DNA of 12,152 nt. It comes from Thermoanaerobaculia bacterium. Lineage in GTDB: Bacteria; Acidobacteriota; Thermoanaerobaculia; Multivoradales; UBA5704. The stretch spans positions 1 to 12,152 of the forward strand of contig JAICSG010000055.1 of the NCBI GenBank assembly GCA_025937035.1, in the 5' to 3' direction. This document shows positions 1-12,152 of the stretch, one piece after another (the stretch's first letter is position 1; each line of letters begins with the position of its first letter). The position numbers and the translations under genes are program-made. Below the pieces are notes generated by a model. That model had not been told where the DNA came from and did no database searches. It was given only the letters and a program-made list of their open reading frames with translations.

Positions 1-288
1 GAGGCGACGGGGGACCCGGAGGAAGGGCCCGAGCCGGTGGACGCCGAGGAGCCGGAGAGCCTGGCGGTGCGGCGGGAGCTGGCGGGCGTGCTCGGCCGGG
101 CGATCGGCGCCCTGTCGCCGGAGCAGCGGGCGGTGGTCGAGCTGACCTATTACTACGGGCTGGCCTACCCGGAGATCGCGGAGATCGTGGGCTGCCCGGT
201 GAACACGGTGAAAACGCGGATGTTCCACGCCCGCCGGCGGCTGAAGGAGCTGTTGCCGGGGATGGGCGTGTCCGGATACGCGGGTTAG
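1..288 (+). CDS. ECF-type RNA polymerase sigma factor, C-terminal part (5' end outside window)
   Basis: The frame is open from base 1 to the TAG at 286-288, so the gene begins upstream of the window; an internal GTG at 37 is not a convincing start. The 95 visible residues end in a sigma-70 region 4. A stretch opening with LSPEQRAVVELTYYYGL leads into the helix-turn-helix around YPEIAEIVGCPVNTVKTRMFHARRRL, which binds the promoter -35 element (family knowledge). The acidic linker before it (EEGPEPVDAEEPES) is typical of the region 2/region 4 linker in ECF factors. A zinc-finger anti-sigma gene starts 11 bases downstream behind an AGGAGGT ribosome site, the usual sigma/anti-sigma arrangement. 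The ECF group cannot be assigned without region 2. Confidence 0.9.
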   Translation, partial: EATGDPEEGPEPVDAEEPESLAVRRELAGVLGRAIGALSPEQRAVVELTYYYGLAYPEIAEIVGCPVNTVKTRMFHARRRLKELLPGMGVSGYAG

Positions 289-299
289 GAGGTAAGACC

Positions 300-1010
300 A
301 TGCGAGAGCGGGAGGATCACGGCGAGCGGGTCCATCAGCGGGTCTGGGAGCTGCTCCCCTGGTACGCCAACGGAAGCCTTGCCGAACGGGAACGAGAGTG
401 GGTCGAGACCCATCTCGCGGCATGCCTCCGCTGCCAGGAAGAGGAGCGGGTCTGCCGGCACATGGCCGGTGCCGTGGCGCGGGGCGGCGAGATCGCCCCC
501 GCCCCGCACCCGGTGCAGCTCCAGCGGATGCTCGCGCGCATCGAGGAGAGCGAGCTCGAGGAGAGGGAGAGCGCCGGCCGCTGGCGTCTCCTCGCGCCCC
601 TGCGCTCCCTGGTGGCCGCGACTCCCCGCCCCTTGCGCGGGGCCCTGGTGGCCCAGGCCGCCGTGATCCTCCTGCTGGTCGGATTCCTGGCCTGGAGCTT
701 CTGGCGCCCGGGCACCGCCCCCAACCAGCAGCCGGTCTATCGCACGCTGTCCAATCCGGACGCGGCGCCGGTCCCCTCGGTCCGCCTGCGGGTGATGTTC
801 TCCCCCCGGGCGACGGAAAAGGAGATCCGCGAGCTGCTGCACGGGATCCACGGCGAGATCACCGCCGGCCCCTCGCCGAGCGGCGCCTATACGGTCGAGG
901 TGCCCGCCGCCAGCGATCCGGCCGGGGTGGTGCTGGCTCGCCTGCGCTCCGAGCCCCAGGTGGTGATGTTCGCCGAGCCCGCCGCCGGGCCGGGAGAGGC
1001 CGGCCGGTGA
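300..1010 (+). CDS. Membrane anti-sigma factor: zf-HC2 zinc finger, one TM helix, propeptide-like outer domain
   Basis: This 236-residue protein probably holds the upstream sigma factor inactive at the membrane. Residues 34-52 carry the anti-sigma zinc motif HxxxCxxC (H38, C42, C45). A single hydrophobic helix spans about 115-135. The predicted outer part (about 161-227) reads as strand-helix-strand-strand-helix-strand, with a GAYTVEVP strand followed by a helix and RSEPQVVMFAEP. I recognise this as like the N-terminal prodomain of S8 subtilases (fervidolysin/I9-like fold); that match is by eye, not by a profile search. The ATG at 300 follows AGGAGGT with good spacing. The TGA stop overlaps the GTG start of the S8 protease gene (GTGA), indicating translational coupling. 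The likely topology is an inner zinc finger that binds sigma and an outer domain that binds or mimics a propeptide. Confidence 0.88.
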   Translation: MREREDHGERVHQRVWELLPWYANGSLAEREREWVETHLAACLRCQEEERVCRHMAGAVARGGEIAPAPHPVQLQRMLARIEESELEERESAGRWRLLAPLRSLVAATPRPLRGALVAQAAVILLLVGFLAWSFWRPGTAPNQQPVYRTLSNPDAAPVPSVRLRVMFSPRATEKEIRELLHGIHGEITAGPSPSGAYTVEVPAASDPAGVVLARLRSEPQVVMFAEPAAGPGEAGR

Positions 1011-2236
1011 GCACCGCCCTGCTCCGGGGAGCCGGGCTGGGAGCCCTGCTTCTCGGTTCTCTCCTCGTCTTGGGCTGCGGGAGCGCTCCCTCCGGATCCG
1101 GCGAGGGTGGCGCCGCCGCCGCTCCGCCGCCGCTGACCGATCAGCAGGTGATGGTGACCTACCCGCCGGCTCCCCCCTCGCTGTGGAGCCAGCACACCAC
1201 CGAGCTCGCGCAGCAGTACAGCCTCAGCTTCGTCGCCGCCTGGACCATGGAGTCGCTCGGCGAGCAGTGCGTCGTCTTCGAGGTCCCCCGCGGCCGGTCG
1301 GTGCACGAGATCGTCCGGCGTCTCGCTTCGGACCCCCGGGTGAGCCTCGCGCAGCCCGTGGCGACCTTCCGGACCCAGGGGGGCGACCCTTATGCCCAGC
1401 TCCAGCACGGCTCGGCCACCCTGCGGCTCGAGCAGGCGCACCGCTGGGCCACCGGCAAGGGGGTGAAGATCGCCGTGGTGGATACCGGCGTGGACATCGA
1501 TCATCCCGATCTGCGGGACCGGGTGAAGTTCGCGCGCACCTTCGTCGATCGCGGCGAGCGCACCTTCACCAACGACATCCACGGCACCGCCGTGGCCGGG
1601 CTGATCGCGGCGACCGCCGACAACGGCACCGGGATCGCCGGCGCCGCGCCGCAGGCGGAGATCTACGCCCTCAAGGCCTGCTGGGAGCAGCCGCCGGGAG
1701 CCCGCCAGGCGGTGTGCAACAGCTATACGCTGGCCCTGGCGGTGGACTTCGCCCTCGCCAGGATTCCGGACACCCAGATCCTCAACCTCAGCCTGGGCGG
1801 ACCCAACGATCCGATCCTCGGCAAGCTGATCGACCGCGCCCTGGCCAAGGGGATCGTGGTGGTGGCGGCCGACGGCGGCCCCAACCAGGACTTCCCCGCC
1901 AGTCACAAGGGGGTGATCGGGGTGATGGGGAGCGACGACCTCAACGGTCCCCCCTCCGTACCGGCCGGGCACCCGCGCGCCGCTCTGGCCGCGCCGGGGG
2001 TGGACATCCTGACCACCATGCCCCACGGCACCTACGACCTCTTCTCCGGCAGCTCGGCCGCCGCCGCCGAGGTCTCCGGCATCGCCGCCCTCCTGCTGGA
2101 GAAGAACCCGAAGCTCACCCCCGCCCAGCTCGCGGCCATCCTCCAGAAGACCGCCCGCCCCATCGACGCCGACCCGGTGAGCGAAGTGGACGCCTGCGCC
2201 GCCCTCGCGACTCTCACCGGGGGCGGGTGCAAATAG
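1007..2236 (+). CDS. S8 family (subtilisin-like) serine protease lipoprotein, atypical active site
   Basis: This 409-residue protein starts at a GTG overlapping the anti-sigma stop. Residues 1-24 form a lipoprotein signal ending in the lipobox VLGC (C24), so the mature protein should be lipid-anchored outside the inner membrane. A low-complexity Gly/Ala/Pro linker follows. A propeptide-like domain spans about 46-122 and ends in LASDPRVSLAQP. The subtilase domain has D159 (VVDTGVD), H192 (DIHGTAVAG), the substrate-cleft strand NLSLGG (260-265) and S350 (FSGSSAAAAEVSG). Two features are odd. The usual AAGN carrying the oxyanion Asn reads AADG (G290), and the usual Pro after the catalytic Ser is Ala. 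Cys pairs at 225/237 and near the C-terminus may form disulfides. Linkage to the sigma/anti-sigma pair suggests a role in envelope signalling. It could be a slow protease or a non-catalytic binder. Confidence 0.88.
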   Translation: MSTALLRGAGLGALLLGSLLVLGCGSAPSGSGEGGAAAAPPPLTDQQVMVTYPPAPPSLWSQHTTELAQQYSLSFVAAWTMESLGEQCVVFEVPRGRSVHEIVRRLASDPRVSLAQPVATFRTQGGDPYAQLQHGSATLRLEQAHRWATGKGVKIAVVDTGVDIDHPDLRDRVKFARTFVDRGERTFTNDIHGTAVAGLIAATADNGTGIAGAAPQAEIYALKACWEQPPGARQAVCNSYTLALAVDFALARIPDTQILNLSLGGPNDPILGKLIDRALAKGIVVVAADGGPNQDFPASHKGVIGVMGSDDLNGPPSVPAGHPRAALAAPGVDILTTMPHGTYDLFSGSSAAAAEVSGIAALLLEKNPKLTPAQLAAILQKTARPIDADPVSEVDACAALATLTGGGCK

Positions 2237-2262
2237 ATCTCTGACAGAGAATCCCCTTCCGA

Positions 2263-2284
2263 GCGTCCGCCCGCCGGCGGACGC
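2263..2284. other. GC-rich 9-bp hairpin between S8 protease and corA
   Basis: The arms GCGTCCGCC (2263-2271) and GGCGGACGC (2276-2284) are perfectly complementary around a 4-base loop. No T-run follows on either strand, so it is not a classic intrinsic terminator. The right arm ends two bases before the corA ribosome site (AAGGAGG, 2286-2292). It may protect or separate the two transcripts, or affect corA translation. The function is inferred. Confidence 0.5.
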
Positions 2285-2296
2285 CAAGGAGGAGGC

Positions 2297-3388
<1,092 letters not shown>

Positions 3389-5956
3389 TTGAAGCTGAAG
3401 GACATCCAGCTCTCCAAGCTGACCTCTCTGCTCAGCCTGTTCTTCTTCGGGCTGGCCCTGTGGCTGCTCCGCCGCGAGTTGGCGGGCTTCCGCTACAAGG
3501 ACATCATCCTCTTCTTCCACAACCTGCCGGCGCACCGGGTCACGATGGCGCTCGCCTTCACCGCCCTGAGCTACCTCGCGCTCACCTGCTACGACGCGCT
3601 CGCCCTGCGCTACATCGGCAAGCGCATCCACTACTGGAAGGTCGCCCTCGCCTCCTTCGCCGGCTACGCCTTCAGCAACACCCTCGGGCTCCCCCTGTTC
3701 ACCGGCACCCCCCTGCGCGCCCGCCTCTACTCGGGCTGGGGGATGACGGCGATCGACATCACCCGCGTGGTGCTGTTCAGCTACATCACCTTCTGGCTGG
3801 GGTTCATCGGCCTCTCGGGCGCGGCCTTCCTGCTGGAGCCGATCGCCGTGCCGGCGCTGCTGCACCTGCCGATGGCGAGCGCGCGGCCGGTGGGCATCCT
3901 GTTCCTGAGCCTGATCGCCGCCTTCCTCGTCGCCTCGTTCGTGCGCAAGCGGCCGTTCGTCTTCAAGGGGCTGGAATTCTCGGTCCCCCGGCCGCCGATG
4001 GCCGCGGCGCAGATCGCCGTCGCCTCGCTCGACTGGGCCTTCGCGGCGACCGTGCTCTACGCCCTGCTCCCCTCCTCCTGGCACATCACCTACGTCCACT
4101 TCCTGGGCATCTTCCTGTTCGCCCAGGTGGCCGGGCTGCTCAGCCACGTCCCCGGCGGGCTCGGGGTGTTCGAGTCGATGATGGTGCTGCTGATGCCGCC
4201 CGAGCCGCCGCGGGGCGAGGCCGACCTGCTGGCCGCGATGGTCGCCTTCCGCGGCGTCTACTACCTCCTGCCGCTGCTGATCGCCGCCGTCTCCCTCGGC
4301 GCCCACGAGGTGGTGCGCCGCCGCGAGCAGGTGGGCAAGATCGCCCGCATCTTCGGCGGCCGGGCGCCGGACGTGGTGCCGCAGATCCTCGCCGTCACCA
4401 CCTTCCTGGGCGGCGCCATCCTGCTGATCTCCGGGGCCACCCCCGAGGTGCACTCGCGCCTCTCCTGGCTCAACGACATCCTGCCGCTGCCGATCATCGA
4501 GTTCTCCCACTTCCTCGGCAGCCTGGCCGGGGTCGCCCTCCTCTTCCTGGCGATCGGCCTCCAGCGGCGCCTCGACGCGGCCTACCAGCTCACCCTGGTG
4601 ATGCTCGGCGGCGGCATCGTCCTCTCCCTGGCCAAGGGCCTCGACTGGGAGGAGGCGCTGATCCTGTCGCTGATGCTCGCGGCGCTCGCCCCCTGCCATC
4701 GCTACTTCTACCGCAAGACCTCGCTCACCTCCGAGCCGTTCACGCCGGGGTGGAGCGTGGCGATCATCATCGTCATCCTGGGCACCCTCTGGCTGGGCTT
4801 CTTCGCCTACAAGCACGTCGATTACTCCCGCGAGCTGTGGTGGCGCTTCAGCCTCTTCGGCAACGCGCCGCGCTTCCTGCGCGCCTCGGTGGCGGCGGTG
4901 GCGGTGGCCCTGGGGGTCGCCCTGCGCCACCTGCTCCGCCCGGCGGCCCCCGAGCCCGAGCCCCCCACCGAGGAGGAGATCGACCACGCCGCCCGCATCG
5001 CCGCCGCCTCGCCGCGCACCTACGCCTACCTGGCCCTGCTCGGCGACAAGGAGCTGCTCTTCAACGAGACCGGTACCGCCTACGTGATGTTCGGGGTCGA
5101 GCGCCGGAGCTGGGTGTCGATGGGCGGTCCGGTGGGCCCCGAGAAGGAGCGCGCCGAGCTGGTCTGGAAGTTCCGCGAGCTGGTGGACCGCCACGACGGC
5201 TGGACCTGCTTCTACCAGGTCAGCGAGCGGATGCTCCACCTCTACGTCGACCTCGGGCTGACCCTGATCAAGCTGGGCGAGGAGGCGCGGGTGCCCCTGA
5301 CCGGCTTCACCATCGAGGGGAGGAACCGCAAGAAGCTGCGCCACGCCTGGCGCCGGGCCGGCGAGGAGGGGTGCACCTTCGAGGTGATCCCGGCGGAGGA
5401 GATCCCGGCGCTGATGCCGGACATCGAGCGGATCTCGGACGACTGGCTGCGCACCAAGAACACCCGCGAGAAGGGGTTCTCGCTCGGCTTCTTCGACCAG
5501 GGCTACCTGAAGCGCCTGCCGCTCGCCCTGGTGCGCAAGGAGGGGCGGATCGTCGCCTTCGCCAACCTCTGGCCGGGCGGCGAGCAGGAGGAGATCTCGA
5601 TCGACCTCATGCGCCACGTGGTCGACGCGCCGCTGGGGGTGATGGACTACCTGTTCATCGAGCTGATGCTCTATGGCTCGCAGCAGGGGTACCGCTGGTT
5701 CAACCTCGGCATGGCCCCCTTCGCCGGCCTGGAGGCGCGCTCGATCGCCCCCATGTGGAGCCGCCTGGGCTCGATGGTCTACCGCCACGGCGAGCACTTC
5801 TACAACTTCCAGGGCCTGCGGGCCTATAAAGACAAGTTCGATCCCGTCTGGGAGCCCCGTTACCTCGCCTGCCCCGGCGGCCTCGCCTTCCCGCTCGTCC
5901 TGGCGGACATCGCGGCGCTGATCGGGCGGGGGTTCCGGGGGGTGGTGGCGAAGTAG
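3389..5956 (+). CDS. mprF: Bifunctional aminoacyl-phosphatidylglycerol synthase/flippase MprF
   Basis: This 855-residue protein is close to known MprF proteins (about 840). MprF transfers an amino acid from aminoacyl-tRNA to phosphatidylglycerol and flips the product outward, lowering negative surface charge and protecting against cationic peptides (family knowledge). Residues 1 to about 510 form a large multi-helix membrane region, including the flippase-type stretch near LPLFTGTPLRARLYSGWG and SHVPGGLGVFESMMVLL. From about 532 a soluble DUF2156/LPG-synthase C-terminal domain follows, with GRNRKKLRHAWRRA, EEISIDLMRHV and GYRWFNLGMAPFAGLE. The start is TTG immediately after the corA TGA, with GGAAGGG about ten bases upstream; no nearby in-frame ATG competes. 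Which amino acid is transferred (Lys, Ala or other) cannot be read from the sequence. Confidence 0.93.
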   Translation: MKLKDIQLSKLTSLLSLFFFGLALWLLRRELAGFRYKDIILFFHNLPAHRVTMALAFTALSYLALTCYDALALRYIGKRIHYWKVALASFAGYAFSNTLGLPLFTGTPLRARLYSGWGMTAIDITRVVLFSYITFWLGFIGLSGAAFLLEPIAVPALLHLPMASARPVGILFLSLIAAFLVASFVRKRPFVFKGLEFSVPRPPMAAAQIAVASLDWAFAATVLYALLPSSWHITYVHFLGIFLFAQVAGLLSHVPGGLGVFESMMVLLMPPEPPRGEADLLAAMVAFRGVYYLLPLLIAAVSLGAHEVVRRREQVGKIARIFGGRAPDVVPQILAVTTFLGGAILLISGATPEVHSRLSWLNDILPLPIIEFSHFLGSLAGVALLFLAIGLQRRLDAAYQLTLVMLGGGIVLSLAKGLDWEEALILSLMLAALAPCHRYFYRKTSLTSEPFTPGWSVAIIIVILGTLWLGFFAYKHVDYSRELWWRFSLFGNAPRFLRASVAAVAVALGVALRHLLRPAAPEPEPPTEEEIDHAARIAAASPRTYAYLALLGDKELLFNETGTAYVMFGVERRSWVSMGGPVGPEKERAELVWKFRELVDRHDGWTCFYQVSERMLHLYVDLGLTLIKLGEEARVPLTGFTIEGRNRKKLRHAWRRAGEEGCTFEVIPAEEIPALMPDIERISDDWLRTKNTREKGFSLGFFDQGYLKRLPLALVRKEGRIVAFANLWPGGEQEEISIDLMRHVVDAPLGVMDYLFIELMLYGSQQGYRWFNLGMAPFAGLEARSIAPMWSRLGSMVYRHGEHFYNFQGLRAYKDKFDPVWEPRYLACPGGLAFPLVLADIAALIGRGFRGVVAK

Positions 5957-5965
5957 GGCCGCCCC

Positions 5966-5989
5966 AAAAACACCGCCCCTCCGGGGCGG
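5966..5989 (-). terminator. Rho-independent terminator facing the minus strand
   Basis: Read on the minus strand, a 7-bp GC stem CCGCCCC-GGA-GGGGCGG (5989 to 5973) is followed by TG and five T (5970-5966), a compact intrinsic terminator. It lies just past the orfB end of the IS and would stop minus-strand transcription before it runs antisense into mprF. On the plus strand the same hairpin follows the mprF stop by 16 bases but has no U-run, so it would at best be a weak terminator or mRNA end-protector for mprF. Confidence 0.65.
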
Positions 5990-6028
5990 GCCCTCATCAC
6001 CCCGGCCCTCTTCTCCCGGCCTCCCCCC

Positions 6029-6055
6029 TGAACTTCCCCCGGTTTCGGGGACACC
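6029..6055 (+). repeat. IS3 terminal inverted repeat, orfB end
   Basis: The repeat begins TGAACTTCCCCCGGT and ends GGACACC. It matches the reverse complement of 7322-7348 at 23 of 27 positions; the differences are at positions 3, 4, 15 and 19. Confidence 0.85.
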
Positions 6056-6058
6056 GAG

Positions 6059-6973
6059 TTAAGGGTACACGGCTGGAGAGGCCTCCTCCCCCAGCCCATT
6101 CGACTCCAGCTTACGTTCCTGTTGCGCCTTCTCAAAGGTCGCCGGGCTCCGATAGCCCAACGACGAATGCAGACGCTGCCGGTTGTAGAACACCTCGATG
6201 TACTCGAACAGCTCCGACTGCGCCTGCTGGCGCGTCTGGTAGTGATCGTAACCTTCCAACTCGGCCTTCAGGGTGCTGAAAAAACTCTCCACCACGGCGT
6301 TGTCGTAGCAATCGCCGCGACGGCTCATACTCACCTGCACGCCCAGCCGCGATAACTCTGCCTGGTAGTCCGAGCAGGTGTACTGGCACCCCCGATCACT
6401 GTGGTGGAGAAGGCCGCGTGATGGCTGGCGCTGCTCCACCGCCATGTCCAACGCCGCCAGCGCCAACTCGTGAGTGATGCGATCACTACAGGCCCAACCC
6501 ACCACCCGCCGCGAGCACAGGTCTAGCAGCGCCGCCAGGTACAGCCAGCCGTCCCGCGTCCACAGGTACGTGATGTCACCGGCCCAGACCGTATCCAGGC
6601 CAGCCACCGAGAACTGCCGATCCAGATGATTGGGCGCTACCGGGTGCCCAGCTACCGACCGGGTGGTCACCCGGAAGCTGCGCCGACGCCGCGCCTGCAA
6701 GCCGTCGCGGCGCATCAGCCGCTCCACCCGATGCTTGCCGCACCGCACCCCCTGCTGTTTCAGCGTCCGGTACACCCGCGGACTGCCATACCGGCCCCGC
6801 GACTGCTGCGACACCGCGCGAATGTGCACCAAAAGCTTGCGATCTTCTCGGGCGCGTGGGGCCTCGGGATGCTGGCGCCAACGGTAAAAACCGCTGCGCG
6901 AGACCCCGAGGACCCGACACATCGTCTGGACCCGAAACTCCTTACCGTGCTCGACCATGAACGCGTACTTCAC
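6059..6973 (-). CDS. IS3-family transposase OrfB (DDE catalytic subunit)
   Basis: This 304-residue protein is the catalytic half of the IS3 transposase. An N-terminal HTH-like part (MCRVLGVSRSGFYRWRQ) and an HTH_21-type segment (YGSPRVYRTLKQQGVRCGKHRVERLM) precede the rve core. The catalytic residues are D133 (WAGDITYLWT), D193 (HHSDRGCQY) and E229 (DNAVVESFFSTLK). The 35-residue D-E spacing and the Lys seven residues after the Glu (K236) are the IS3 hallmark. The nominal start is a GTG at 6973 overlapping the orfA TGA. In IS3 elements the active enzyme is the OrfAB fusion made by frameshifting, and the -1 frame here is open from the A7 run through this GTG. The stop lies only four bases inside the terminal repeat. 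Confidence 0.95.
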   Translation of the reverse strand: MKYAFMVEHGKEFRVQTMCRVLGVSRSGFYRWRQHPEAPRAREDRKLLVHIRAVSQQSRGRYGSPRVYRTLKQQGVRCGKHRVERLMRRDGLQARRRRSFRVTTRSVAGHPVAPNHLDRQFSVAGLDTVWAGDITYLWTRDGWLYLAALLDLCSRRVVGWACSDRITHELALAALDMAVEQRQPSRGLLHHSDRGCQYTCSDYQAELSRLGVQVSMSRRGDCYDNAVVESFFSTLKAELEGYDHYQTRQQAQSELFEYIEVFYNRQRLHSSLGYRSPATFEKAQQERKLESNGLGEEASPAVYP

Positions 6974-7287
6974 GGCTGGCGGGGACCCGAGAAGATCGCC
7001 AACGCTTTTTTTAGGATGTCCCGCTCCTCCTGCAGCCGGGCGATCTCCCGATGCAGACGACGCAGCTCTTCGTCTTCCGGTTTCTGGTGACCCTTGCCGG
7101 GGAACGCCTGCGCTCCCTCCTGCTTGAGCTCCTCGCGCCAGCGACGGATCAGCTTCGGATCCAACTCCAGATCCCGAGCCACCTGGGACAGACGATGACC
7201 TCCTTCGGTCACCATCCGCACCGCCTCTTCTTTGAACTCCCGAGGAAAGGTCCGTCTCGTTCTGACTTTACTCCGTATCTTGCTCAT
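6970..7287 (-). CDS. IS3-family transposase OrfA (HTH/leucine-zipper subunit)
   Basis: With the ATG at 7287 this is 105 residues; a GTG at 7302 would add five. I prefer the ATG because GAGGTG lies a good distance upstream of it. The protein has an HTH_Tnp_1 domain (FPREFKEEAVRMVTEGG, then LSQVARDLELDPKLIRRWREEL) that binds the terminal repeats. A leucine-zipper-like coiled coil follows (EELRRLHREIARLQEERDILKKAL) and mediates dimer formation in this family. The tail after the slippery site (ALAIFSGPRQP) is the short product; a -1 shift replaces it by an open frame into OrfB. OrfA alone usually acts as a repressor of transposition (family knowledge). Confidence 0.93.
   Translation of the reverse strand: MSKIRSKVRTRRTFPREFKEEAVRMVTEGGHRLSQVARDLELDPKLIRRWREELKQEGAQAFPGKGHQKPEDEELRRLHREIARLQEERDILKKALAIFSGPRQP
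7006..7012 (-). promoter_or_regulatory. Programmed -1 frameshift site (A7) joining orfA and orfB
   Basis: On the minus strand the orfA codons CTA AAA AAA GCG contain seven A followed by G, a standard slippery heptamer read as A AAA AAA. After a -1 slip the frame continues AGC GTT GGC GAT and so on, without a stop, into the orfB GTG and beyond, giving an OrfAB fusion. No pseudoknot was worked out. Confidence 0.85.
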
Positions 7288-7321
7288 GCGACACCTCGTC
7301 ACCCATTATCGGGCTTTTTGA

Positions 7322-7348
7322 GGTGTCCACGATACCGGGGGAAGCCCA
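7322..7348 (-). repeat. IS3 terminal inverted repeat, orfA end
   Basis: Read inward on the minus strand it begins TGGGCTTCCCCCGGTAT and ends GGACACC, the partner of 6029-6055 (23/27). It lies upstream of orfA, as expected for the left end of an IS3 element. Confidence 0.85.
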
Positions 7349-7457
7349 GAGAGCCCCAAAGATCCACAAGCCCCGTAGGGCCGGCAGATCTTTGCCGATT
7401 GGCGGCTCCCGCTAAGGTGTCGGCCCTGCGGGCTCCAGGAGGGGAGAGGCGGACTGG

Positions 7458-7479
7458 GCCTGGGGTTGACACCCCAGGC
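7458..7479. repeat. Perfect 9-bp inverted repeat, REP-like
   Basis: GCCTGGGGT (7458-7466) pairs perfectly with ACCCCAGGC (7471-7479) around TGAC. It is not followed by a T-run on either strand, so it is not an obvious terminator. Confidence 0.6.
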
Positions 7480-7488
7480 TGAGCAAAT

Positions 7489-7505
7489 TCCGCCCTGCGG
7501 GCGGA
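7489..7505. repeat. 7-bp inverted repeat with TGC loop, REP-like
   Basis: TCCGCCC-TGC-GGGCGGA forms a perfect 7-bp stem. It lies 9 bases after the 7458-7479 hairpin, so the two form a closely spaced pair. Confidence 0.55.
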
Positions 7506-7609
7506 GCGAGATCCCTTACCTGTAATCGGGGACCGACTCACGCTTCCTATGCGCCCTCCCCAGGCGGATGGTAGAGCCCCGGAGGTTTTAAGGCAAAGGC
7601 GGCGCCCGC

Positions 7610-7637
7610 TTGGAAACAATTTGCCTCTGGGTATAAT
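7610..7637 (+). promoter_or_regulatory. Sigma-70-type promoter for the reductase gene
   Basis: A perfect TATAAT (-10, 7632-7637) is preceded by TTGGAA (-35, 7610-7615; 4/6 match to TTGACA) with a 16-base spacer. Transcription would start near 7644 and give a 36-base leader before the ATG at 7680. No strong Shine-Dalgarno site is seen in that leader. Confidence 0.65.
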
Positions 7638-7679
7638 CTATCGATCACCCTGGCAACCTAACATCTTGCTGATATTCCC

Positions 7680-8192
7680 ATGAAACGCATCCGCTACCTC
7701 GTCGCCGCCAGCCTCGACGGCTACATCGCGGGACCGCACGGTGAGTACGACTGGATCGTCCAGGATCCGGAGATCGACTTCGCCGCGATGTTCGCGCAGT
7801 TCGACACGTTCCTCGTGGGAAGAAAGACGTTCGAGGCCATGGCCGGCGGGCCCAAGCTGAACGGGAAGGTGGTCGTCTTCTCCCGCACGCTCCGGCCGGA
7901 GGATCATCCGGAGGTGACGATCGTGGCGGAGAAGGAACGGGAGACCGTGGAGGCTCTTCGTAGAGAGCCGGGCAAGGACATCTGGCTGTTCGGCGGCGGC
8001 GAGCTCTTCCGGAGCCTGCTCGACGCCGGGCTGGTGGATACGGTGGAGGTCGCCATCATCCCGATCCTCCTCGGCGGCGGAATTCCGCTGCTGCCGTCTC
8101 CGGCCCCGCAGACGAAGCTGAGGCTGACCGGCCGCCGGGTATATGAGGGGAGCGGGATCGTGTCGCTGCAATACGAGGTGCTACCCGGCTGA
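7680..8192 (+). CDS. Dihydrofolate reductase family protein (RibD C-terminal domain)
   Basis: This 170-residue, single-domain protein is probably a cytoplasmic NADPH-dependent reductase. The family shares the fold of DHFR and of the riboflavin enzyme RibD, but small stand-alone members like this one mostly have unknown substrates. Visible motifs are the N-terminal strand with SLDGYIAG (11-18), LVGRKTFE (45-52), the nucleotide-binding FGGGELFRSLL (104-114) and the closing PILLGGGIPLLP (128-139). The ATG at 7680 fits the start of strand 1 (MKRIRYLVAASLDG) and lies 43 bases after the TATAAT box. No clear Shine-Dalgarno site precedes it. The gene stands alone and converges on the minus-strand thioredoxin-fold gene across a repeat tract. 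Nothing links it to folate or riboflavin synthesis here. Confidence 0.9.
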   Translation: MKRIRYLVAASLDGYIAGPHGEYDWIVQDPEIDFAAMFAQFDTFLVGRKTFEAMAGGPKLNGKVVVFSRTLRPEDHPEVTIVAEKERETVEALRREPGKDIWLFGGGELFRSLLDAGLVDTVEVAIIPILLGGGIPLLPSPAPQTKLRLTGRRVYEGSGIVSLQYEVLPG

Positions 8193-8290
8193 AGGACTGC
8201 AAGGACCCAAAGGACAGAAAGCGCGCTTTCAGGTCTTTTGTCCTTGCAGTCGTTGCAGTCCTTTGGGTCCTTAATGTCCTTCTGGTCCTT
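8192..8290. repeat. Opposed arrays of a 9-base repeat between convergent genes
   Basis: The left arm has AAGGAC at 8192, 8201 and 8210, exactly 9 bases apart. The right arm has the complement GTCCTT at 8240, 8258, 8267, 8276 and 8285, with a one-mismatch copy (GTCGTT) at 8249, so six units in 9-base phase. The centre is a perfect palindrome, GAAAGCGCGCTTTC (8217-8230). Long arms can pair in alternative ways: 8201-8215 with 8258-8272 (15 bp) and 8195-8206 with 8240-8251 (12 bp). The tract lies between the 3' ends of two convergent genes. It may act as a bidirectional transcription end or a protein-binding array; the role is inferred. Confidence 0.8.
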
Positions 8291-8299
8291 GTTCCGGCC

Positions 8300-8866
8300 T
8301 CACGCCGCCCAGACCGACGCCTTTTTCGCCCAGGCGCTGTCGGTGAAGCGGGACTTGAAGGCCTGGGCGGTCTCGCCCAGGGCGCCAGCCTCTCCGGTCC
8401 CCTTGTATTTCGAGACGCCCGCCCAGTAGAGCGCCTCGGGCGCCACATCGCCCGCCGCGGGATTGTCCGCGAGCTCGCGATAGAGGCGCTCGGCCTTGGC
8501 AAAGTCGCCGAGGAGCCTGGCCTCATGGGCCAGACCGAGCTTCAGTTGCGCCAGGAAATCGGGCGCGGGCAGGAAGCCCTCGATGCGATGCCGCTCGACG
8601 CCGCTCGGATCGAGGATGAGGATGGTCGGCGTCCACTGCGCGCCGAAGCGCTCGAACGCCTCGCCCTGCTCCTTCACGTGAGCCCGGGCCGGAATGAAAT
8701 TCTCGTTGATGAAGGTCGCGACCTTGGGATCGGGGTAGACCTCGGCTTCCAGCCGAGCGCATCCCCCTCACATCGGGGCGGCGGTGAAGTCGAGGAGCAC
8801 CGGCCGGCCGGTCTCGCTGGCCTGGCGCAATGCCGCGTCGATGTCACGGTTCCAATTGATTTCCAT
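8300..8866 (-). CDS. Selenocysteine-containing thioredoxin-fold protein (UGGC active site), TGA at 8768-8770 read as Sec
   Basis: Read through one TGA, this is a 188-residue protein with no signal peptide, so it is probably cytoplasmic. Residues 1-32 form the first thioredoxin helix and strand (PVLLDFTAAPM). The TGA is residue 33, giving Sec33-Gly-Gly-Cys36, exactly where thioredoxins carry CxxC. The fold continues through FINENFIPARAHV, and WTPTILILD carries the conserved cis-Pro (P80). After about residue 105 comes a TPR-like helical tail (LLGDFAKAERLYRELADNP). The start at 8866 has AAGGAGG six bases upstream; the downstream GTG at 8677 would omit the active site. A SECIS-like hairpin follows the TGA. 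Read conventionally, the TGA splits the gene into a 32-residue stub and a headless fragment. A disabling mutation cannot be excluded. The role is inferred to be thiol/selenol redox exchange; the partner is unknown. Confidence 0.85.
8732..8767 (-). promoter_or_regulatory. Putative bacterial SECIS element directly after the in-frame TGA
   Basis: On the minus strand, 17 bases after the TGA lies a tri-loop hairpin CTCGGCT-GGA-AGCCGAG (8757-8741) with a perfect 7-bp stem. The loop opens with G. A lower helix, GGGG (8767-8764) with CCCC (8735-8732), closes an asymmetric internal loop. Bacterial SECIS elements lie inside the coding region just after UGA, with a short-loop stem bearing a G early in the loop about 16-37 bases from the UGA (as I recall the published consensus). 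This one is near the short end of that range. Confidence 0.65.
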
Positions 8867-8872
8867 GGGGAG

Positions 8873-8879
8873 CCTCCTT
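8873..8879 (-). promoter_or_regulatory. Ribosome-binding site of the selenoprotein gene
   Basis: AAGGAGG on the minus strand lies six bases before the ATG at 8866-8864. It is a full-consensus site and decides the start of the full-length, Sec-containing product over the internal GTG at 8677. Confidence 0.85.
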
Positions 8880-8892
8880 GAATTCCAGAGGA

Positions 8893-8912
8893 CGGGAGCG
8901 TCCGCGCTCCCG
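8893..8912. other. 8-bp hairpin in the selenoprotein 5' leader
   Basis: CGGGAGCG and CGCTCCCG pair perfectly around a 4-base loop, ending 13 bases upstream of the selenoprotein ribosome site. On the minus strand no T-run follows. It may be a leader control element or a protein site; the function is unknown. Confidence 0.45.
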
Positions 8913-9011
8913 AGTGGTTCCTTGACGTAGCAGCAATTAACGTGCCGACTAACCCGCGCGGAGCGCTTCGAGGCATGGGCCGGCACCGTGACGGCCGCCC
9001 CGCGGCCAGTG

Positions 9012-9039
9012 TTGGCGGCCAGGTACGGCGATGTATACT
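9012..9039 (+). promoter_or_regulatory. Candidate promoter for the patatin-domain gene
   Basis: TTGGCG (9012-9017) and TATACT (9034-9039) are 16 bases apart, a reasonable sigma-70-type pair (4/6 and 5/6). Transcription would start near 9046 and give a leader of about 72 bases. A nearby TTGACA at 9051 has no -10 partner. Confidence 0.4.
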
Positions 9040-9070
9040 CCCGCAACGCCTTGACAAGCCAGAGTGCCGA

Positions 9071-9089
9071 CGAATCGGTTTTCGATTCG
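9071..9089 (+). other. Leader hairpin upstream of the patatin-domain gene
   Basis: CGAATCG-GTTTT-CGATTCG forms a perfect 7-bp stem with a 5-base loop, 28 bases before the ATG at 9118. It lies in the presumed untranslated leader, which argues against the longer GTG start at 9064. Confidence 0.4.
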
Positions 9090-9117
9090 CGGCCGGATCA
9101 TCGAAAAAGGGGAACGC

Positions 9118-11295
9118 ATGGCGACCGATACCGTGGGCGCGCAGCCGTTGGCGAAGGCTCCGGACCGTACGTGGGTGGAGCGTCTTTCTGAAGGATTCGC
9201 CTATCTCAAGCGCCTTTATGTCTTTCTGCTGCCGCTCCGCTTCAGCTTCCTCGCCCTGGCGGTGGTCGGGTTCGCCTTCCTCATCTCGGACCAGGGGCAC
9301 GACATCATCGCGGCGATGACCGAGAACGATCCGCGCAATCTGGAGATCTCCGCCCATCCCTGGCAGCGCTTCTTCTTCGTGCCGCTGGTGAGCTTCCTGG
9401 CGGTCCAGATCTGGTACTGGTCGCGGACCCTCCTGCGGGTGTGCTTCCCGGGCATGCCGGCCGCCCACGACTTCCCGCGGACCACGGTGATCCTCCCCCG
9501 CGCGCTGGGGGTCGCGGCCTACGTGATCATGCTGCTGGCGCTCTATCGGGTCGGCCGCGAGTATGAGCACGGAGGGGGGCAGCCGCTGACGACCTTGTGG
9601 CGCCTCGCCGGGTGCCTCGCCGCGGCGATGGTGCTGTTCGTCCTCTTCTGCATGGGGCGCCGCCGCATGCTGGAGAAGCGCGGCCACAGCTTGGTGCGGC
9701 AGAAGCCGGTCCACCAATTCGCGGTCTCCACGAAGTGGCTGCTCGGCGGCACCTTCGCCATCTCCGTCCTCTTCTTTCTCTCGTCGTGCTTCTTCGTCCA
9801 GCGGACCGGACGCTTCGGCTCGATGGGGATCGTCCTGCTCTCGATGGCGCTCTGGGTCTCGTTCGGCAGCATCCTGGTCTACCTCGGCACGAAGGTCCGG
9901 ATGCCGGTCCTCACGCTGATGCTGGGCCTCGCCCTGCTGGTCAGCCCCCTGGCGGACAATCACGTCCTGCACACCCTGCCGGGCACCGCGGACCTCGTGA
10001 CCTCGCGGCCGACGGTTACCGAGGCTTTCGATCGCTGGAGCGCGCGGCTGGCGCACGATTATCCGAACGAAGCGCAACATCCGGTCTTCGTGGTCGCCAC
10101 GGAAGGGGGCGGCATCCGCGCCGCCTACTGGACGGCGGCGGTGCTCACGGCGCTCGACGACGGCATTCCGGGCTTCCGGAATCACCTCTTCGCCGTGAGC
10201 GCCGTTTCCGGGGGCGCGGTCGGCTCCGCGGCCTACGCGGCGCTGGTGACGCGGCAGATGGACTCCGGGGGCACGCTGCAAAAGCTCCGCCCCGCCGCCC
10301 AGGAGATGCTCTCCTACGACTCGCTGGCCCCCACCCTCTCGGCCATGACGCAGCAGGATTTCGTGCAGCGGTTCATTCCCTACCCCTTCCTTCCCGATCG
10401 CGCCCGCGCGCTGGAAGGGGGATGGGAGACGGCCTGGCGGGACGTCTGGAAGCAAAAGGACGACCGCTTCGCCCACGGCTTCCTCGCCCTGCTGCACGGG
10501 CGCGAGGACCGCATGCCGTCTTTCTTTCTCAACGGCACCACGGTGGAGACGGGGGAGCGGATGATCGGCAGCAACTGCCGGATCACCTCGAGCGAATTCC
10601 GCAACGCCCTGGACGTCTTTGCCGCGGCGGGGTCGGACCTCCGGGTCAGCACCACGGCCCACAACAGCGCCCGGTTCACCTACGTCTCTCCCGCCGGCAC
10701 CTTCCGGCGCACCGCTTACACGGACGGGAGAAACGATCAATACTCGCCGTACGATTGCAAGGCCGGAGACCGCTGCGAGCACGTGGTGGACGGCGGCTAT
10801 CTCGACAACTCCGGAGCGATCACGGCGGCGGAGATCCTGGAGACTCTCCAGCACCATCTCCGGGACCCCAACGCCCCCAGGATCGCCATCGATCCCCATG
10901 TGATCATCATCAGCTTCGAGAAAGATCCTCCGGCCCGCGCGGCTTCGGAAAGGTGGCTGGACGAATCCCTCTCTCCCGTGCGGGCGCTGATGAGCACGCG
11001 CGGCGCGCGGGCGGACCTGGCGGTGAGCCGGATCGGTCCGCAGACCGGAGCCCATGTGATCGACTTCCACCTGGTGCAACGGCCGCACACCATCCCGATG
11101 CCGCTCGGCTGGCTGCTCTCCCTGCACACGCGCACCCTGATCGACGCCCAGGTGGGGGACGGCGCGCAGGAGAACAAGGAGGCCATGCGGCAGGTCGCGG
11201 ACGCCCTCAAGACCACCGCCCTCCCCGACGCGGTCCAGCGGAGCGCGGCGGCGGCGCCGATGGTGAAGGAGATCCGCCAGAGCCAGAAGAACTAA
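9118..11295 (+). CDS. Multi-pass membrane protein with C-terminal patatin-like phospholipase domain
   Basis: This is a 725-residue protein. Residues 34-278 hold about seven hydrophobic helices (34-56, 85-102, 126-143, 162-180, 207-226, 235-256, 263-278) with basic loops between. Residues of about 322-700 form a patatin-like domain. Its parts are the Gly-rich oxyanion loop EGGGIRA (329-335), the nucleophile S364 in SAVSGGAVG and the catalytic Asp in VVDGGYLDNSG (D558). These are the two halves of the Ser-Asp dyad, so it should be an active lipid acyl hydrolase held at the membrane. The ATG at 9118 has AAGGGG about six bases upstream; the longer GTG start at 9064 would cover a leader hairpin. 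The gene diverges from the selenoprotein and converges on the lipoprotein gene 12 bases away. Substrate and pathway are unknown. Confidence 0.85.
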   Translation: MATDTVGAQPLAKAPDRTWVERLSEGFAYLKRLYVFLLPLRFSFLALAVVGFAFLISDQGHDIIAAMTENDPRNLEISAHPWQRFFFVPLVSFLAVQIWYWSRTLLRVCFPGMPAAHDFPRTTVILPRALGVAAYVIMLLALYRVGREYEHGGGQPLTTLWRLAGCLAAAMVLFVLFCMGRRRMLEKRGHSLVRQKPVHQFAVSTKWLLGGTFAISVLFFLSSCFFVQRTGRFGSMGIVLLSMALWVSFGSILVYLGTKVRMPVLTLMLGLALLVSPLADNHVLHTLPGTADLVTSRPTVTEAFDRWSARLAHDYPNEAQHPVFVVATEGGGIRAAYWTAAVLTALDDGIPGFRNHLFAVSAVSGGAVGSAAYAALVTRQMDSGGTLQKLRPAAQEMLSYDSLAPTLSAMTQQDFVQRFIPYPFLPDRARALEGGWETAWRDVWKQKDDRFAHGFLALLHGREDRMPSFFLNGTTVETGERMIGSNCRITSSEFRNALDVFAAAGSDLRVSTTAHNSARFTYVSPAGTFRRTAYTDGRNDQYSPYDCKAGDRCEHVVDGGYLDNSGAITAAEILETLQHHLRDPNAPRIAIDPHVIIISFEKDPPARAASERWLDESLSPVRALMSTRGARADLAVSRIGPQTGAHVIDFHLVQRPHTIPMPLGWLLSLHTRTLIDAQVGDGAQENKEAMRQVADALKTTALPDAVQRSAAAAPMVKEIRQSQKN

Positions 11296-11307
11296 CGGGC
11301 GGATCGA

Positions 11308-12152
11308 TCAGGATCGCGCCGGCGGCGAGGCGGTCACCTTGCCCAGGAGCAGGATGCCGTCGTAGCCGGTGGTGGGGGCCGCGGCCGGATCGAGCTCCAC
11401 GCGCGGGGTCGGGCCGTTGGCCTCGCGGGGACGGAGATCGTGAGGGCCGCAGTCCTTGGGATCGGAGGAGGTACACGTCCAGGCCGATCCTCCGAGGTTT
11501 TTGACGTCGAGAGCGGTCAGACCGGCGTACCGGGCGCGCAGGCGCGCTCCCATGGGAACGTAGCCGGCCTTGGCGTCCCAGGGATAGCCGTTCAGGGTCC
11601 GCGTGTGGACGTTCCCGGCCAGGACGAGGGTCTGCGCGGGGCTCACCGCCGCGATGGCCTCGGCCACCGCGTCCGCCATGCCGGCGTCCCGTTCGCCCGG
11701 CGAATCGTAATGTTGGGGATCGATCCCCCGGACCACGATTCTCAATCCAAGGCTCCGCAGGCGGCGGAGCTCGCCGAGCAGGCCGAGCATCGCCTCGCTG
11801 CTGCGGCCATCCTGAAAATCGCGGTGCCAGAAATCCCCCGCCAGCAGGGTCCGGGCCGCGGCGGCGTCCCCCGGGCCGGCCAGGAAGGCATCGATCGCGG
11901 CCTGCTCGCTAGCGGGGATCTCCAGACCGGCGAGGATCGTCTGGCCCCGATGAGCGGAGGCCGCGTGGCAGACCAGGTCCCCGAACGCGGCGGGGACCTC
12001 GCGGGTGCCGTGGAGATCCCCGACCAGCACCAGGGGCGCCGTGAGCCTCTCCTCTCCCGTGATCCCGCCGCAGGCGACGGCGGCCGCGGGGGGCCGCGCG
12101 GGCGGGGACGGCCGGCTCGACCCGCAACCGGTCAGCCCGCAGGCCAGGGCGA
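11308..12152 (-). CDS. Putative lipoprotein, ChaN/EreA-like superfamily (5' end outside window)
   Basis: The frame stays open to the window edge (about 280 visible residues). The visible N-terminus, ALACGLTGCGSS, contains a lipobox (LTGC), so only a few residues of signal peptide are missing; the GTG at 12030 is not the true start. A Pro/Ala-rich linker precedes the core. Core motifs are LVLVGDLHGTRE, LAGLEIPASEQ, DFQDGRSSEAML and LVLAGNVHTR near the middle, then GGSAWTCTSSDPKDCGPH. The GDxHG and GNxH histidines recall the ChaN haem-binding lipoproteins and erythromycin-esterase-like proteins. Family membership is by eye and the function is unproven. The C-terminal Cys pair could form a disulfide, fitting an envelope location. 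It ends 12 bases from the stop of the patatin-domain gene, convergently, with no clear terminator between. Confidence 0.65.
   Translation of the reverse strand, partial: ALACGLTGCGSSRPSPPARPPAAAVACGGITGEERLTAPLVLVGDLHGTREVPAAFGDLVCHAASAHRGQTILAGLEIPASEQAAIDAFLAGPGDAAAARTLLAGDFWHRDFQDGRSSEAMLGLLGELRRLRSLGLRIVVRGIDPQHYDSPGERDAGMADAVAEAIAAVSPAQTLVLAGNVHTRTLNGYPWDAKAGYVPMGARLRARYAGLTALDVKNLGGSAWTCTSSDPKDCGPHDLRPREANGPTPRVELDPAAAPTTGYDGILLLGKVTASPPARS

Follow-up and report, generated by a model that had tools for sequence, protein, structure and literature searches.

A predicted selenoprotein with a thioredoxin fold and a TPR-like tail, read across an in-frame TGA in Acidobacteriota and Gemmatimonadota genomes

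Introduction

Does the TGA codon that separates two abutting minus-strand reading frames in a Thermoanaerobaculia contig end a protein, or does it encode a selenocysteine (Sec) within one? The question arises in a window of 12,152 nucleotides (contig JAICSG010000055.1, positions 1 to 12,152), for which an original prediction had joined the two frames into a single unannotated selenoprotein gene. We sought to assess this reading by examining the gene, its relatives, the RNA downstream of the TGA, and the Sec machinery of the carrier genomes. We conclude with high confidence that the gene at 8866-8300 encodes a selenoprotein acting as a cytosolic thiol-disulfide oxidoreductase, with a TPR-like tail that most likely holds or chooses clients; Sec insertion, redox activity, and client binding by the tail are what we infer from these combined lines of evidence.

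A single gene split by one TGA codon

The translation of the minus strand confirmed that the two fragments are one gene. The frame running from 8866 to 8300 comprises 188 residues with a single internal TGA at residue 33, in the context APM-U-GGC, and the predicted counts of 32 codons before and 155 after it were both correct. The coordinates of this codon were rechecked, and the plus-strand triplet at 8768-8770 reads TCA. The terminator of the gene is itself a TGA (8300-8302). The consensus ribosome site that had been proposed upstream was located as AGGAGG, six bases before the ATG. It was noted that codon 33 lies 3' of the first beta strand and a DF[ST]AAP segment and, as claimed, falls on the first Cys position of a CxxC motif (here UGGC), where distant homologues carry Cys. 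The expected Thr-Pro motif was found downstream at residues 79-80, its cis state being assigned by fold analogy. A gene caller starting at the GTG at 8677 indeed loses the active site, and the resulting 125-aa fragment is present both in the ORF list and in the protein database (P0002). The parts of the gene are as follows.

8300..8866, minus strand: predicted selenoprotein gene, 188 residues plus TGA terminator (translation, homologue alignment)
8768..8770, minus strand: in-frame TGA read as Sec, residue 33, first position of U-G-G-C (translation, relatives)
8759..8761, minus strand: Cys36, second active-site residue of UxxC (invariant in a 15-row alignment)
8741..8757, minus strand: SECIS hairpin (folding, pair counts, and the model in the available text of PMC13188914)
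8627..8632, minus strand: Thr79-Pro80 (invariant in the 15-row alignment; cis-proline by fold analogy)
8537..8866, minus strand: thioredoxin domain, DsbD-gamma/DsbH-like, residues 1-110 (Pfam and structure matches)
8303..8566, minus strand: TPR-like tail with BamD/YbgF-like helices, residues 101-188 (TPR_6 below cut-off, model, structure matches)
8873..8878, minus strand: ribosome-binding site AGGAGG, 6 nt 5' of the ATG (sequence)
8300..8677, minus strand: 125-aa gene-caller fragment with GTG start, without the active site (ORF list, database)

Fold and domain architecture

The protein matched PF13098 (Thioredoxin_2) at 52.2 bits against a cut-off of 27 (E 8.8e-14). In the structure model (pLDDT 96.2, pTM 0.91), residue 33 stands directly before helix 34-43, so that the UxxC motif opens the first active-site helix of a thioredoxin fold, and the conserved Pro occupies the cis-Pro place. 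Structural comparison placed the thioredoxin part nearest to DsbH and DsbD-gamma, and residues 100-188 nearest to BamD. The tail was modeled as four helices after a linker helix (101-118), which bears out the TPR-like tail of the predicted pairing. No signal peptide or hydrophobic N-terminus was seen in the 188-residue protein, and because the N-terminus is not hydrophobic, we infer a cytosolic location for the product. No NCBIfam model (June 2026) was over its cut-off for this protein, and the CnoX family gave no match in the Pfam and NCBIfam searches.

The TGA position among relatives

Named genomes were scanned with two patterns that left the TGA position free, yielding 68 loci, or 69 sequences with the gene itself. 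All 68 loci, including two that are otherwise damaged (a second in-frame stop in L047 and a frame lost downstream in L112), carry a TGA at exactly the codon-33 position. By title, every one of these loci comes from a metagenome assembly, and some of the phylum assignments may stem from faulty binning; the titles name Acidobacteria and its classes, Gemmatimonadetes, Eisenbacteria, Verrucomicrobia, Deltaproteobacteria, Zixibacteria, the Terrabacteria group, and Nitrospirae. Most of the genomes in which the family was found are Acidobacteriota or Gemmatimonadota. Since the TGA recurs in independent assemblies, a sequencing error at codon 33 appears very unlikely.

Some match was found in 220 of 297 sampled Acidobacteriota genomes. 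All 17 matches of at least 100 bits, comprising 15 orthologs and the sister-group loci L029 and L030, carried one TGA. Among 13 lower-scoring Acidobacteriota loci that were fetched, five had a TGA at the position (L031, L032, L035, L039, and L042), while the remaining eight, all distant, had Cys in a CxxC motif (L033, L034, L036-L038, L040, L041, and L043). The proposed comparison with homologues thus returned TGA in 68 of 68 loci, together with Cys in these eight stop-free loci and in two of the 13 full-length database proteins described below. In the alignment, the residues 5' of the TGA are conserved while their third codon positions are free.

Further thioredoxin-like genes with a TGA were observed along the way. 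The same genome holds a second Sec-type thioredoxin-TPR gene (contig C73, L044:1340-1954) with the motif TPE-U-LGC, which forms a clade of its own together with L029-L032; L029, L031, L032, and L044 were below every NCBIfam cut-off. Longer frames, of about 500-760 aa and each holding one TGA and a thioredoxin-like match, were also encountered (L042:1501-1818, G146, G296, G272, G216, G170, and G072). The one read among these longer frames, L042, has the motif SDG-U-GGC, and such frames possibly represent another Sec thioredoxin group in Acidobacteriota.

A SECIS-type hairpin downstream of the TGA

In the window, a hairpin with a 6-bp stem (CTCGGC/GCCGAG) and the loop TGGAA begins 16-17 nt 3' of the TGA, and a T-A pair may close its loop to GGA. 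The bacterial SECIS model, as given in the available text of PMC13188914, sets a loop of 3-9 nt, a stem of 4-16 bp, a G within the first two loop positions, a spacing of 16-37 nt, and an MFE of at most -7.5. The window hairpin agrees with this model (17 nt, 7 bp, loop GGA, -21.7 kcal/mol). A script applying the same rules found a conforming hairpin after the TGA in 68 of the 69 sequences, the exception being L104. Control codons of the same genes passed in 2130 of 9306 cases (22.9%), and the best control column reached 28 of 69.

We examined whether the stem itself is preserved. Across the 68 loci, the stem codons are nearly frozen (Arg CGG 64/66, Leu CTG 65/68, Ala GCC 63/65, Glu GAG 60/67), whereas outside the stem Leu, Arg, and Ala draw on many codons; the Leu at -9 uses all six (CTG 23/67), as does the Arg at +40 (CGC 37/67). 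The Phe at -6, a two-codon residue outside the hairpin, is equally frozen (TTC 65/68). Stem pairing was retained in 95.5% of 402 cells, with both sides changed in seven cells at two pairs; sliding the partner gave pairing in no more than 41.8% of cells, and a slide of +1 tied on the covariation score. RNAalifold did not find the hairpin over all 69 rows and recovered a 4-bp core (-6.41 kcal/mol) without L098, L103, and L104. The single-sequence fold was unexceptional compared to shuffles (z -1.38). The argument for the hairpin is carried by the pair count, the codon freezing, and the per-sequence rule test.

It was noted that L098, L103, and L104 have lost the usual stem sequence, and that L098 and L103 fold a hairpin with other pairing and a loop one or two bases later, which looks as if the element were being rebuilt in place in these three loci. 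Both the hairpin and the spread of the family go beyond what the original prediction had claimed.

Sec machinery in the carrier genomes

The presence of Sec machinery had been set as a check on the prediction, and it was found in part. The genome encodes tRNA-Sec (C633:2762-2857, 70.7 bits), SelA (C1245, 541.9 bits), and SelD (C667, 342.8 bits). The SelD gene has its own in-frame TGA, in the motif ...GGUAAKIGPG, and therefore an unrelated gene of the same genome also needs Sec. SelB was missing from the draft assembly (1254 contigs, 93.75% complete): TIGR00475 had no match over its cut-off, the matches below it being IF-2, LepA, and EF-G by eye, and the PF09107 profile had no match. SelB was over cut-off in 13 of the 15 ortholog-bearing Acidobacteriota genomes, this genome being among the 15, and in seven of nine further carriers; the genome of the closest relative (G297) was without SelB over cut-off. 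Matches of 176-201 bits from frames of about 360-440 aa, taken to be EF-Tu, were seen in several relatives and are likewise missing from this assembly. Because these presumed EF-Tu matches are also absent, the lack of SelB probably reflects a gap in the assembly, in which case SelB would lie outside the assembled contigs.

SelA was over cut-off in 191 of the 297 Acidobacteriota genomes, and each of the 17 best carriers in this phylum had it at E 1e-141 or better (Fisher exact test; p = 0.0004, kinship ignored). Among 50 carrier genomes tested from the 68 loci, some of which are shared with the 297-genome sample, 48 had a SelA match and 45 had one over cut-off; the three matches below cut-off include short pieces at contig ends.

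Database proteins and non-Sec forms

We then assessed how the family appears among predicted proteins. The matches listed comprised 232 distinct database relatives, drawn from the best 120 of 3429, the best 120 of 3597, and a homologue search with residues 1-75 alone, which returned eight proteins, mostly fragments. The N-terminal motif is missing from 219 of these 232 listed relatives, as expected if gene callers start after the TGA, and many of the fragments are unnamed or are called hypothetical, TolA-binding, or TPR proteins.

The 13 full-length proteins listed carry Trp (nine), Cys (two), Ser (one), or Arg (one) at the Sec position, and the codons of all four residues are each one substitution away from TGA. 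Eight of the nine Trp proteins come from one source and the ninth from another. They are 58-79% identical to a locus with TGA in its DNA (P0209 and L079, for example, share 77% identity), and on this account the Trp is probably a TGA translated by code 4, as judged from the protein sequences. In a 76-row tree, P0030 (Cys), P0095 (Arg), and P0057 (Ser) fall within a 16-row, mainly Gemmatimonadota Sec clade, while P0123 (Cys) sits on an unresolved fork. This placement suggests that several of the non-Sec forms are derived.

Relation to known families

A PF13098 selenoprotein family with a UxxC motif, "Thiol:disulfide interchange protein", is listed in Table 1 of PMC13188914 (representative WP_011366075.1), is also found in the available text of PMC9312934, and has a 3 in the first column of a table in the accessible part of PMC1794560. 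It has the Pfam domain and UxxC motif in common with the present gene; its table row mentions no TPR tail, whereas the present gene has a TPR-like one. Compared by table description, this family may be a relative. In NCBIfam, related thioredoxin domains (E 5.7e-11 to 8.6e-5) were detected by the TsoB (NF045694), VPGUxxT types 1 and 2 (NF041382, NF041383), and Trx7/PDZ (NF041199) models, at 41, 39, 25, and 22 bits against cut-offs of 805, 275, 350, and 300, respectively; their motifs and architectures are unlike those of the present gene. DsbD-gamma and DsbH are periplasmic or exported CxxC proteins, whereas the present protein combines Sec with a TPR-like tail and shows no visible signal peptide. 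CnoX/YbbN, which is cytoplasmic, shares the order of a thioredoxin domain followed by TPR, but its TPR domain is longer and the structural match is weak; to our knowledge, no Sec form of it has been described.

No thioredoxin-TPR entry appears by name among the 119 families and subfamilies of the 2026 inventory (PMC13188914, Table 1), and a literature search by title and abstract, covering few subscription journals, found no such selenoprotein described. We treat the thioredoxin-TPR selenoprotein as a new family that may be related to the PF13098 UxxC one. According to the available text of PMC12013277, the deep-Sep method may miss selenoproteins without Cys homologs, a limit that would be consistent with a Sec-dominated family escaping notice. 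A probable reason for the oversight is that most of the database relatives listed are fragments whose start lies 3' of the TGA.

Gene neighborhood

Clustering of ORFs of at least 90 aa within about 4 kb of the 69 loci, many of them cut short by contig ends, revealed no partner gene conserved beyond close kin; the largest neighbor cluster covered six loci, in varied places and on varied strands. PADLOC gave no match. The selenoprotein gene stands alone.

Several other features of the window were recorded. A strong imperfect inverted repeat of AAGGAC-type units lies between convergent genes at 8189-8299 (minus-strand fold -52.1 kcal/mol, z -7.43) and may be a repeat element or a terminator acting in both directions. 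A two-frame insertion-sequence transposase with HTH_Tnp_1 and rve domains, presumably IS3-like, lies near the selenoprotein gene at 6059-7302 on the minus strand. A 743-aa protein, membrane-like by eye, is encoded on the plus strand at 9064-11295, divergent from the selenoprotein gene, and had no Pfam match at E 1e-5.

Discussion

The reading of codon 33 as Sec has to be weighed against two others. The TGA could be a true stop, with the locus being a pseudogene, a sequencing error, or a gene whose downstream part alone is made from an internal start. The fragment-only form of most listed database relatives and the further damage in two of 68 loci would fit such a stop, but the same TGA recurs in every locus, the residues before it are conserved while third positions vary, and a ribosome site precedes the long frame, as does a comparable sequence in 47 of 65 loci with an identified start codon (a count without a control). 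A product of the downstream part alone would moreover be missing both the active site and the first strand. We regard a true stop as highly improbable. Decoding as Trp, or non-specific read-through, is given next to no credence: it draws on the nine of 13 full-length listed proteins with Trp, which are known as proteins only and whose Trp is probably the code-4 translation noted above, and it is contradicted by the gene's own TGA terminator, by Cys in distant relatives, and by the conserved SECIS-type hairpin. Past the internal TGA, 34 of 67 family genes (a total that includes the damaged L047 and L112) again have TGA as their next stop. We know of no role for a Trp at the first CxxC position. 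On these grounds we rejected pseudogene, sequencing error, internal start, and Trp decoding. The selenoprotein reading itself is strongly supported by the TGA kept in 68 of 68 relatives and the SECIS-type hairpin downstream of it.

As a selenoprotein, the product would be made by SelB and tRNA-Sec decoding the UGA at codon 33 as selenocysteine via the hairpin just downstream. The selenolate of residue 33 would then most likely be the nucleophile that attacks a client disulfide or other oxidized thiol, and Cys36 would resolve the mixed selenyl-sulfide; this chemistry follows from the fold and motif. The short TPR-like tail most likely selects or holds the client protein.

What the client might be was considered in two forms. 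A thioredoxin domain with a resolving Cys, joined to a tail related to BamD/YbgF repeats, is consistent with reduction of one dedicated partner enzyme, such as a peroxiredoxin or a disulfide-cycling reductase, for which the tail would be the docking site; a recurrent neighbor gene is lacking among the 69 loci beyond close kin, and we consider this reading on the unlikely side. A chaperedoxin like CnoX/YbbN, in which the tail would be a holdase and the thioredoxin domain would protect or reduce client thiols under oxidative stress, is attractive for its shared domain order and its match to E. coli YbbN (3qou; Foldseek rank 36, E 9.8e-5, 199 columns), a weak one. The rmsd over this alignment is 11, the thioredoxin domain resembles DsbD-gamma/DsbH more closely, and the CnoX family went unmatched. 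The tail has four helices, compared to the two subdomains of five helices reported for the E. coli CnoX TPR in the available text of PMC8129009. We think it unlikely that this chaperedoxin reading is the right one.

These results add a selenoprotein across genomes assigned to Acidobacteriota, Gemmatimonadota, Eisenbacteria, Zixibacteria, Myxococcota, Verrucomicrobiota, and Nitrospirota, although binning errors are possible. In this soil-type acidobacterium, the gene most likely places selenium in a thioredoxin-like active site. A probably catalytic family appears to be widely misannotated: in a database that runs to billions of predicted proteins, 219 of the 232 relatives listed are fragments without the active site. 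A whole-frame profile with U would let annotation pipelines mend many entries. Because Sec appears to outnumber close Cys forms, the family offers a test case for why Sec is kept. We tentatively raise the possibility of an old cytosolic thioredoxin-TPR family of Sec-first chaperedoxins, in which Sec would be the normal state and the Cys, Ser, and Arg forms rare derived losses. If so, Cys/Sec-pair searches and gene callers would have missed it, and soil bacteria would carry it as one of their common selenoproteins.
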